DNA of 64,000 nt. It comes from Candidatus Zixiibacteriota bacterium (GTDB lineage Bacteria; Zixibacteria; MSB-5A5; WJJR01; JAJRUJ01). The stretch lies in assembly GCA_020051695.1 (NCBI GenBank), contig JAGVQM010000010.1, positions 1 through 64,000 on the forward strand, given 5' to 3'. Below are positions 46,091 to 49,618 of the stretch, piece by piece. The notes under the pieces were generated by a model that did not search any database, was not told the DNA's origin, and saw only the letters and a list, made by a program, of their open reading frames with translations. Numbering within the stretch: the stretch's first letter is position 1; each line of letters opens with the position of its first letter. Both the position numbers and the translations under genes were made by a program.

Positions 46091-46756
46091 ATGCGGACGC
46101 TCGCGACTGTATTTCGGACTGTGGCAATCGTCGTCATTCTGGCCGCTGCGGCCCACGGCCGGGAGATGTCCGGGAAAATCGGGATTACGCCACAATGGGG
46201 ATTGATTATACCAATTGATGATGATGGAAACCATCGAGATATTGGTTTTAAACATGGATTGGAGCTGGAATATTTTATTACCAATAACGTCTCGCTCGGC
46301 CTCCTATTATTTCGTGATGTATTTCCGGCAGGAGCTGACCTGTTGAGGACGCATTTCGGCTTCCGAAACGACGATGACAATTGGCCGATCTACGGACTGG
46401 CGGCGCAGGCCAAATTTTCCTGCGTCGCCACATCATACACCGATGTTTTTGGGCGTCTCGGTTTCGCACTCGCCCGAGCGGAATTTTATATCGATCGGCC
46501 GTGGGGCCTTGAATGGTGGCCCGAGACTGTCAAAGAGACGGAAACCTTCCCGGAATTGGAAGTCGGGTTTGGCATTTCCAGGCATCTATCCCCGCGATTT
46601 GCCTTCTATACCGAGATTGAATATTCTCTTCTTTTCACTAAGGGCGTTCGGGTTGAAAAAGAACCTATCGACGACTGGTACAGCTACACTTATGCCTATA
46701 ACATCCAAATGGCGGCAATAAAAATGGGGTTGACGTTTTATCTTGGCGGCAGATAA
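46091..46756 (+). CDS. outer-membrane beta-barrel protein, tandem copy A
   Basis: This 221-residue protein has a signal peptide (MRTLATVFRTVAIVVILAAAAHG) and a barrel pattern ending IKMGLTFYLGGR. The next gene is a close paralogue; even the 15-20 bases before the start (TCAGGGAGGTGCTTT) are identical, including the ribosome-binding site. The strands FYTEIEYSLLFTKGV are shared almost exactly, whereas outer loops differ strongly. Loop divergence suggests surface exposure to phages or ligands. Confidence 0.8.
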   Translation: MRTLATVFRTVAIVVILAAAAHGREMSGKIGITPQWGLIIPIDDDGNHRDIGFKHGLELEYFITNNVSLGLLLFRDVFPAGADLLRTHFGFRNDDDNWPIYGLAAQAKFSCVATSYTDVFGRLGFALARAEFYIDRPWGLEWWPETVKETETFPELEVGFGISRHLSPRFAFYTEIEYSLLFTKGVRVEKEPIDDWYSYTYAYNIQMAAIKMGLTFYLGGR

Positions 46757-46835: not shown

Positions 46836-47495
46836 ATGCGGACGCTCGTGAATGTATTTCGGGCTGCGGTGATCGTAGTAGTATTGGCCGCTGCGGCCCA
46901 CGGCCGGGAGATGGCCGGGAAAATTGGGATTACGCCACAGATTGGACTTGTCAAGTCAATTGGCGAATTTAGTGAACGGCAAGACCTTGGCTTTGCGTAT
47001 GAATTAGCGGTGGAATACTATGTTTCCAGTAAGGCCTCTGTTGGCTTGCAGTTGTTTCACGTTGATTTCAATACAACAGGAGACCCTTATCCTTCCAGCC
47101 CAACTGCAAATACCTGGCCGATTGATGGCTTGGGGGTTCAAGCAAAATACACTGTCGCGGCCACGCCGTTTACCGATATATTTGCCCGAGTCGGTTTCGT
47201 GCTGAACGACATGGAGTTTCCCATTCACGGATGGGATGTGATCGGTGACTTAGTGAGTAGATCCAGTCGAGTGAGTAAAACATCGGCGGGGTTCGAAACC
47301 GGAATCGGCCTTTCACAATATATATCCAAATATTTTTCTTTCTATGGCGAGATAGAATATTCCCTTTTGTTCACTAAAGGCGTGTCGATCACCAAGGAAC
47401 CCGCGACGACCTGGATTGCCTACGATTGTCCCTATAACGCGCAAATGGCGGCAATTAAAATGGGACTGACGTTCTATCTCGGCGGTGCAAAGTAA
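46836..47495 (+). CDS. outer-membrane beta-barrel protein, tandem copy B
   Basis: This 219-residue paralogue of the preceding gene has the same signal peptide core (ILA/VLAAAAHGREM.GKIGITPQ) and the same ending, IKMGLTFYLGGAK. It keeps the strand residues YSLLFTKGV but has different loops. It arose by tandem duplication that included the ribosome-binding site. It is followed 120 bases later by selD. The function is unknown. Confidence 0.8.
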   Translation: MRTLVNVFRAAVIVVVLAAAAHGREMAGKIGITPQIGLVKSIGEFSERQDLGFAYELAVEYYVSSKASVGLQLFHVDFNTTGDPYPSSPTANTWPIDGLGVQAKYTVAATPFTDIFARVGFVLNDMEFPIHGWDVIGDLVSRSSRVSKTSAGFETGIGLSQYISKYFSFYGEIEYSLLFTKGVSITKEPATTWIAYDCPYNAQMAAIKMGLTFYLGGAK

Positions 47496-47616
47496 ACTGC
47501 TTTGCTTTCAGACGTGGCGTTGAACGCTTGCTCCTTTTCGTTTTATCTCCCGATGAAATTCCTTTCGTGTCGCAACTGGCGTTCGTATTATCCTGATGGA
47601 AATATCGGGAGTTGAT

Positions 47617-48681
47617 ATGATTGAGTGTACAAACAACAACGACACGCCACGGCCGTTGACTAGTTACGCCACCCAGGGCGGGTGAGCGGGAAAACTGGGT
47701 CCGGTGGACCTGGCGGCGCTGATCAAAAATCTCGACTTCGGGCACGACCCGCAGGTGATCGTCGGGCTGGACACCGCCGATGACGCCGGGGTATATCGAT
47801 TACTCCCGGATGTCAACCTGGTAGTCACCGCCGATTTTATTACACCGGTGACCGATGACCCCTATTGGTTCGGCCGGGTGGCGGGGGCCAACTCGCTGTC
47901 GGATGTGTTCGCCATGGGCGGGCAGCCGAAAGTGGCGTTGAACCTTTGTGGTTTTCCCACCAGCGGCGTGGCACAGGAAACCTTGTCCGAAATCCTGCGC
48001 GGCGGGCTGGACGCGGCAAAGCTCGCGGGCTGCCAGATTATCGGCGGCCATACGGTTAAAGACACCGAGATCAAATACGGGTTGGCGGTAGTCGGCATCG
48101 CCAAAGACAATGAAATTAAAACGAATGCTGCCGCAAAGCCGGGTGATCTGTTGATCCTTACCAAACCGATCGGCAGCGGCTTGATTATCGCCGGAACCAA
48201 ACAAAAAAAAATTCCGGCGGACCGCCTCTCCCCTGTCGTGCAAAAAATGGCCGAACTCAACGACAAAGCCGCGCGGGCAATGGTGGAACTCGACTGTTCG
48301 GCAGCCACCGACATCACCGGTTTCGGCCTGGCCGGGCATGCCTGGGAAATGGCCTCGGCCTCGAAAGTCGGCATCAAGTTGTTCACCGGACATGTTCCCT
48401 ATTTCCCCGCCGCGCGTGAAGCTATCGACGCCAGAGTTAAATCGGCTATAAAGCTTTCTGGCGCTGCTTCCCCGGACCTGAAAGTCGAATTCCACCACCA
48501 GGTCTCTGAATTGTGGCGTGCTCTGGTCCTTGACCCGCAGACATCCGGGGGGCTGCTGATAGCGATACACCCGCAACGGGCGGAAAAACTGCTGCGGCGG
48601 CTGCGCGACGAGGGCATTACCGATTCCGCGATTTGCGGGGAAATATTTCACGCCGATTCGCCCCGCGTTTTTGTCAATTAA
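47617..48681 (+). CDS. selD: selenide, water dikinase containing selenocysteine
   Basis: SelD makes selenophosphate for selenocysteine and selenouridine. The obvious ORF begins at GTG 47704, but the same frame extends upstream through a TGA at 47683-47685 to ATG 47617. That ATG has an excellent GGGAG ribosome-binding site five bases before it. The extension reads PLTSYATQGG-U-AGKLGP, matching the SelD N-terminus, where catalytic Cys/Sec17 and Lys20 occur as C/U-x-x-K. Here they are U23 and Lys26. Later motifs DFITPVTDDPYWFGRVAGANSLSD (in parts), GGHTVKD and TDITGFGLAGHAWEM are canonical. A SECIS-like hairpin follows the TGA. The length is 354 residues, normal for the family. No selA, selB or tRNA-Sec lies in the window. 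Confidence 0.93.
47695..47713 (+). promoter_or_regulatory. SECIS-like hairpin for UGA recoding in selD
   Basis: An 8-bp stem, CTGGGTCC paired with GGACCTGG (two G-U pairs), closes the triloop GGT. It begins 9 bases after the in-frame TGA. Bacterial SECIS elements sit just downstream of the UGA inside the coding region and present G and U in the apical loop for SelB. Spacing and loop both fit. Confidence 0.75.
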
Positions 48682-48727: not shown

Positions 48728-48907
48728 TGGAATAATCCGCTGTTGGCCTTATAATTAGACGTTGTTAATTTCCTCGATTTTGCGGGGACGGGACGCGGGT
48801 GGAGGATGCACTGCGCTAGTGGATGTACGGCAATTGACTCAAGTTAACAGGTCGTTCGATACGAACCGGCGGATTACTCGTTGCGGTCGGAAATAGTACT
48901 GCCACAT

Positions 48908-49618
48908 ATGGGTAATTGCGGGAAAAGCGCGGCACAGTGGGCGGCAATGTGTCTATTCGTCCTCGCCGTCACGGCTGGATTTGCCAATATCGGCCATGCT
49001 GACGGCCTGCAGGGGCAGTTTGCCGTCTCGGCGCAAATCGGCAGAATTGTGCCCCAGGGCACTTTTGCCGCCGAAAGGGATGGCCTACCGCTGGGTTCGG
49101 CAACACCGGGGATCGGCGTGGCTTTTGATATCGAGTATTATGCGCTGGAAAATCTCTCGGCGGGGTTGAAAGTCCATTACAATTATTTCGGCCAGGATGC
49201 CGAGTATTTCCGGGAGTTGTTCCCCAGCATCTATTTTAACGGCCACTGGTCGGAGCGCGGGGTCCACGCCTATCTCAAATACATTTTTGCTGTCCGCAGC
49301 CAGAGCCGGTATTACCTGCGCGGCGGGATAACTGTCGGCCGCATTACGGGCAAGATCGAGGCCACGGCCGGGACAAATTTCGCCCGGGTTTACTCGGATA
49401 TCGGGACAGCGGTCGGCGCCGAGGCGGCCCTTGGTTTCCTGCATAGTGTCTCCCCCCGCACGGGCTTGTTCGGGGAAGTCAACTATTCATATTTGCCCAC
49501 TGGCGGCAAAAACGCCACAGTGACGATCCAGGGGCAGGTCATCAATGATGACGAGATCATCGATGCCCGATGGCTGACAGTGCGGGGCGGGATTACGGTC
49601 TTTCTCGGGGGAAAGTGA
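48908..49618 (+). CDS. outer-membrane beta-barrel protein
   Basis: This roughly 236-residue protein has a signal peptide (AAMCLFVLAVTAGFANIGHA) and barrel strands ending RGGITVFLGGK, the same C-terminal signature as the other barrels in the cluster. Internal segments such as YYLRGGITVGRITGKIE support a transmembrane barrel. The start is uncertain: ATG 48908, a TTG 27 bases upstream, or a Met nearer the hydrophobic core, none with a good ribosome-binding site. It converges with the ABC ATPase gene seven bases away. Confidence 0.75.
   Translation: MGNCGKSAAQWAAMCLFVLAVTAGFANIGHADGLQGQFAVSAQIGRIVPQGTFAAERDGLPLGSATPGIGVAFDIEYYALENLSAGLKVHYNYFGQDAEYFRELFPSIYFNGHWSERGVHAYLKYIFAVRSQSRYYLRGGITVGRITGKIEATAGTNFARVYSDIGTAVGAEAALGFLHSVSPRTGLFGEVNYSYLPTGGKNATVTIQGQVINDDEIIDARWLTVRGGITVFLGGK

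Follow-up and report, generated by a model that had tools for sequence, protein, structure and literature searches.

That selenophosphate synthetase (SelD) can itself be a selenoprotein has long been known (PMC1794560, PMC4561486, PMC13188914): the selenocysteine (Sec) form represents 19% of the SelDs in a reference prokaryote set (PMC4561486), and Sec users without FdhA have been reported to possess it (PMC1794560). Two prokaryotic fusions of NifS to SelD have been described (PMC4561486), including that of Geobacter sp. FRC-32 with a CxxU motif (PMC2398784). Extra selenophosphate synthetase genes were described as absent outside metazoans, though two protists were listed with extra candidates (PMC4561486). 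An apparent precedent in C. difficile, described as 'two selD' (PMC11448449), was set aside on the grounds that two mutants were meant rather than two genes. No earlier report of Zixibacteria selenoproteins, or of bacteria with two SelDs, was found in a search of openly accessible papers.

The window considered here, the whole 64,000-nucleotide stretch that was analysed, belongs to a Candidatus Zixiibacteriota assembly of 3.53 Mb and 98.9% completeness, the closest named relative of which is Candidatus Zixiibacteriota Dive96_bin10.176 (SelD 75% identical). The relevant features of the window are as follows.

47607..47611, forward strand: Shine-Dalgarno-like GGGAG with a 5-nt spacer to the ATG, by direct reading
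47617..48681, forward strand: selD (selenide, water dikinase), 354 amino acids on read-through with predicted Sec at residue 23, by TIGR00476 match and homologues
47683..47685, forward strand: in-frame TGA read as selenocysteine, the predicted catalytic U of U-x-x-K, conserved in relatives
47695..47713, forward strand: bSECIS-like hairpin of 8 bp (two of them G-U) with a GGU loop, by folding and conservation
47704..48681, forward strand: shorter GTG-start open reading frame (ORF) of 325 amino acids without the catalytic residue, from the standard-code ORF list

A single forward-strand frame extends from the ATG at 47617 to the stop codon at 48679-48681, and is broken by one TGA only. On read-through the N-terminus becomes MIECTNNNDTPRPLTSYATQGG-U-AGK, in which the catalytic context is GGU-A-G-K and the pair U23-A-G-K26 fits the C/U-x-x-K requirement. 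Profile searches recorded 331.7 bits against TIGR00476 selD (cut-off 125), in an alignment that begins at residue 14 and so spans the TGA, and placed both the N- and C-terminal AIRS domains (PF00586 and PF02769) above cut-off. The Aquifex SelD structure sequence presents GCAAK at the TGA position, which likewise aligns with the Cys of a fused SelD encoded elsewhere in the genome (vide infra) and with the Cys of outside Cys-SelDs, with homology on both sides. These results bear out the preliminary description, which had placed the TGA at the SelD active site, traced the N-terminal codons back to an ATG with a ribosome-binding site, and held that the simple ORF, which opens in the ORF list at GTG 47704, conceals 29 N-terminal codons. 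Just upstream of selD, 46091-46756 and 46836-47495 encode tandem similar short outer-membrane-type proteins, and 48881-49618 encodes a further protein resembling that pair in size and look.

The arms of the hairpin, CUGGGUCC (47695-47702) and GGACCUGG (47706-47713), enclose the GGU loop (47703-47705). The structure was present in the MFE fold (z -2.1) and starts 9 nt past the TGA, exactly as first described, with the loop at +18. bSECISearch looks for a loop with G among its first two positions, approximately 16-37 nt from the TGA, and the GGU loop, separated from the TGA by 17 nt, fits this pattern. The folding energy of the whole folded segment was not significant for the window selD when compared with synonymous shuffles (P = 0.19), nor did this measure separate Sec genes (mean z -1.1) from Cys genes (mean z -0.8); it was replaced by a hairpin-specific score requiring GU in the loop, a criterion fixed after the loops had been inspected, so that the combined P is optimistic. 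Since synonymous codon shuffling produced an equally good hairpin with P = 0.010, and 7 of the 1,921 TGAs of the window equalled it, the hairpin of this one genome taken alone constitutes modest evidence, and the weight of the case rests on conservation.

Conservation was surveyed in 98 genomes of the phylum, each at least 85% complete. A strong SelD match was obtained in 90, of which 85 carry an in-frame TGA at the codon that holds it in the window selD, the TGA-SelDs exhibiting 38-76% protein identity and the upstream codons of relatives encoding the conserved SelD N-terminus. Draft-genome gaps limit absence calls in this set, among them the missing selA of three genomes that have Sec-SelD (G004, G008 and G092). 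Eight others (G021, G032, G063, G069, G074, G075, G097 and G105) gave a selA match with no SelD match at 1e-35, probably as a result of assembly gaps.

The post-TGA region was then read in 47 Sec-SelD genomes and compared with 13 Cys-SelD genes. A hairpin with a GU-containing loop was present in all 47 of the former, and a comparable one in none of the latter (Fisher over 17 family medians, 2e-17, with the GU criterion chosen after inspection). Viewed across the individual regions (L022-L082), the hairpin lay by clade at +18, about +20 or +34, with GU in every loop. By family, loops at +18 were characteristic of the window's own order and of f7, f10, f12 and f13, those at +19 to +21 of f5, f6, f8 and f17, and those at +33/+34 of f3, f4, f9, f11, f14, f15 and f16. 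Three of these position sets were tested for covariation, and each covaries: paired cells amounted to 90.6%, 89.7% and 96.4% in the three groups versus 19-56% when slid by 1-3 columns, and two-sided changes affected 3, 5 and 4 pairs, respectively. Within the window's own hairpin type, the sister genome G001 has a stem change from U-A to C-G. Judged from these alignments, the selD hairpin is shifted by up to 16 nt inside one gene of one phylum, its loop having changed little, and the SelB recognition site seems to have moved between clades.

The expectation that the genome should encode SelA, SelB and tRNA-Sec was confirmed, all three being clustered on one contig (C6), where tRNA-Sec, selA and selB are adjacent in that order on one strand. 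A second selenoprotein gene was located by a targeted search for AhpC-type peroxiredoxins.

Contig C6, 152281-152374: tRNA-Sec with UCA anticodon (69.9 bits)
Contig C6, 150907-152229: selA (504.8 bits)
Contig C6, 149015-150871: selB (342.3 bits)
Contig C37, 46149-46547 (L125): PrxU-type peroxiredoxin, second selenoprotein gene, with in-frame TGA

The latter scored 374.2 bits against NF040737 (cut-off 270), and its TGA falls exactly on the peroxidatic Cys (FYPGDFTFV-U-PTE), as in the selenocysteine peroxiredoxin PrxU that this model describes and from which it shows no notable difference; its post-TGA hairpin is of 4 bp with an AGUU loop at +18, a distance equal to that of selD. Formate dehydrogenase was considered as a Sec client and rejected: no full PF00384 match was found in the genome (best 31.6 bits over 103 positions), and the combination of Sec-SelD with no complete PF00384 protein found fits the published pattern (PMC1794560). 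The window selD shares with described Sec-SelDs (TIGR00476, PMC4561486) the Sec position, the UxxK motif, an immediate bSECIS and the accompanying selA, selB and tRNA-Sec; nothing essential sets it apart, the differences being its Zixibacteria lineage and the coexistence of a Cys-SelD paralogue.

Contig C38, 96469-98670 (L016 325-2529), outside the window: NifS/IscS-SelD(Cys) fusion of 734 amino acids with a GLGCACK active site

In this paralogue a NifS domain (PF00266, residues 4-363) and a SelD domain (TIGR00476, residues 393-699; 403.8 bits), both full length, occupy one frame. It shares with the known fusions an N-terminal NifS-like cysteine desulfurase joined to SelD, but differs in that its SelD half carries Cys within GCACK, that 17 such fusions form one clade, and that most of them occur beside a Sec-SelD. 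The 17 genomes of the phylum in question (in one of them, G033, only part of the SelD half is present, where the contig ends) include 12 with a separate Sec-SelD, probably one more (G012), and four without (G020, G026, G027 and G037), the first three of which keep selA. The preliminary description had regarded a second intact Cys-SelD as refuting the recoding; one does exist, but the coexistence of both forms in 12 genomes means that it is no argument against recoding, which stands. This recurrent two-SelD state departs from the published picture (PMC4561486), and its recurrence, together with the shifting SECIS position, is considered mildly new.

In a phylogeny inferred from 71 SelD domains, whose root was not fixed, the fusions were recovered as one clade (100/99), sister to the distal-hairpin Sec-SelDs and well separated from the window SelD; given this sister relationship, a Sec-to-Cys change inside the group comprising fusions and distal-hairpin forms is likely. 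The sister genome G001 has a lone NifS (L109, C31:11724-12875) beside the same ABC-F ATPase gene. It groups with the fused NifS of the window genome (100/99), no credible SelD remnants were found behind it, and G001 also has a Sec-SelD. We read these data as loss of the SelD half of the fusion in G001, with unfused ancestry as the alternative. That either SelD form has apparently been lost while the Sec system was kept points to overlapping functions. We infer that selenophosphate is produced by both SelDs, either in redundancy or with each supplying clients of its own, and the Sec-SelD may be dispensable in the window genome given the Cys-SelD there too.

Concerning possible clients, SelU was not found in the genome and was rejected in that role for the second SelD. 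YqeB, a family linked to selenium-dependent molybdenum hydroxylase loci (PMC2276186), was detected at 274.5 bits (cut-off 220), in a locus on contig C22 (L132, 9620-15763) where yqeB, xdhC-like and mocA-like genes lie divergent from those for a three-subunit molybdenum hydroxylase. As this arrangement resembles the described maturation locus (PMC2276186), with YqeB above cut-off beside XdhC-like, MocA-like and molybdenum hydroxylase genes, the selenium-cofactor trait is probably present; however, the best score of the hydroxylase, unlike that locus, was to 4-hydroxybenzoyl-CoA reductase, and below its cut-off. YqeC is required besides YqeB for the trait (PMC9312934).

Taken together, we are highly confident that 47617-48681 is a genuine selenocysteine-containing selenophosphate synthetase, Sec insertion and catalysis being predicted from sequence. 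Translation would begin at ATG 47617, and SelB with Sec-tRNA-Sec, bound to the downstream hairpin, would insert Sec at UGA 47683; the resultant Sec-SelD would then use selenide and ATP to form selenophosphate, the compound that SelA requires for charging tRNA-Sec, so closing a self-sustaining loop. The contrary reading, by which the TGA either truly ends translation or results from faulty assembly, and the gene is a pseudogene or encodes a GTG 47704-initiated protein devoid of the catalytic residue, draws on the 325-residue ORF of the standard code and on the complete Cys-SelD elsewhere, which could render the window gene dispensable. It is scarcely credible when set against a TGA at the same codon in 85 genomes, a degree of conservation that already refutes an assembly error, against upstream codons that encode a conserved SelD N-terminus in relatives, and against a covarying hairpin after the TGA.

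Held less firmly than the recoding is the role of the fused Cys-SelD. This enzyme, too, most likely produces selenophosphate, using selenium that would be released by its own desulfurase/selenocysteine-lyase half, and its function would be redundant, at least in part, with that of the Sec-SelD. A division of clients, with one SelD serving Sec synthesis and the fused enzyme supplying the labile selenium cofactor of the yqeB-adjacent molybdenum hydroxylase, would match two selenium traits to two SelDs in a genome where the YqeB/hydroxylase locus is present and SelU absent. It is nonetheless rather doubtful: the fusion is not close to the yqeB locus, and the three fusion-only genomes that keep selA imply that the fusion, if working, must serve Sec synthesis. 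Still less probable is that the Cys enzyme makes the first selenophosphate so that the Sec-SelD can be translated, for which the logical need of an enzyme dependent on its own product and the 12 genomes with both SelDs can be cited; most Zixibacteria genomes with Sec-SelD lack a Cys-SelD altogether, and such a starter is therefore not generally required. Beyond partial redundancy, we would suggest only tentatively that the two synthetases are non-equivalent, the free Sec-SelD acting on selenide and the fused Cys-SelD being fed from selenocysteine/cysteine-type donors, so as to serve different traits or supplies.

Reading with the standard code loses the SelD catalytic residue both here and in most Zixibacteria genomes, an annotation which the present analysis corrects, and Sec use is thereby documented in a phylum for which no earlier selenoprotein report was found. 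Which compound donates selenium to SelD in vivo is still unsettled (PMC13188914), and a Sec-SelD together with a NifS-fused Cys-SelD in one cell provides a natural setting for asking what supplies SelD with selenium. Should the two enzymes prove non-equivalent, the phylum, with its reciprocal losses of one or the other, would allow the identity of that donor to be tested.
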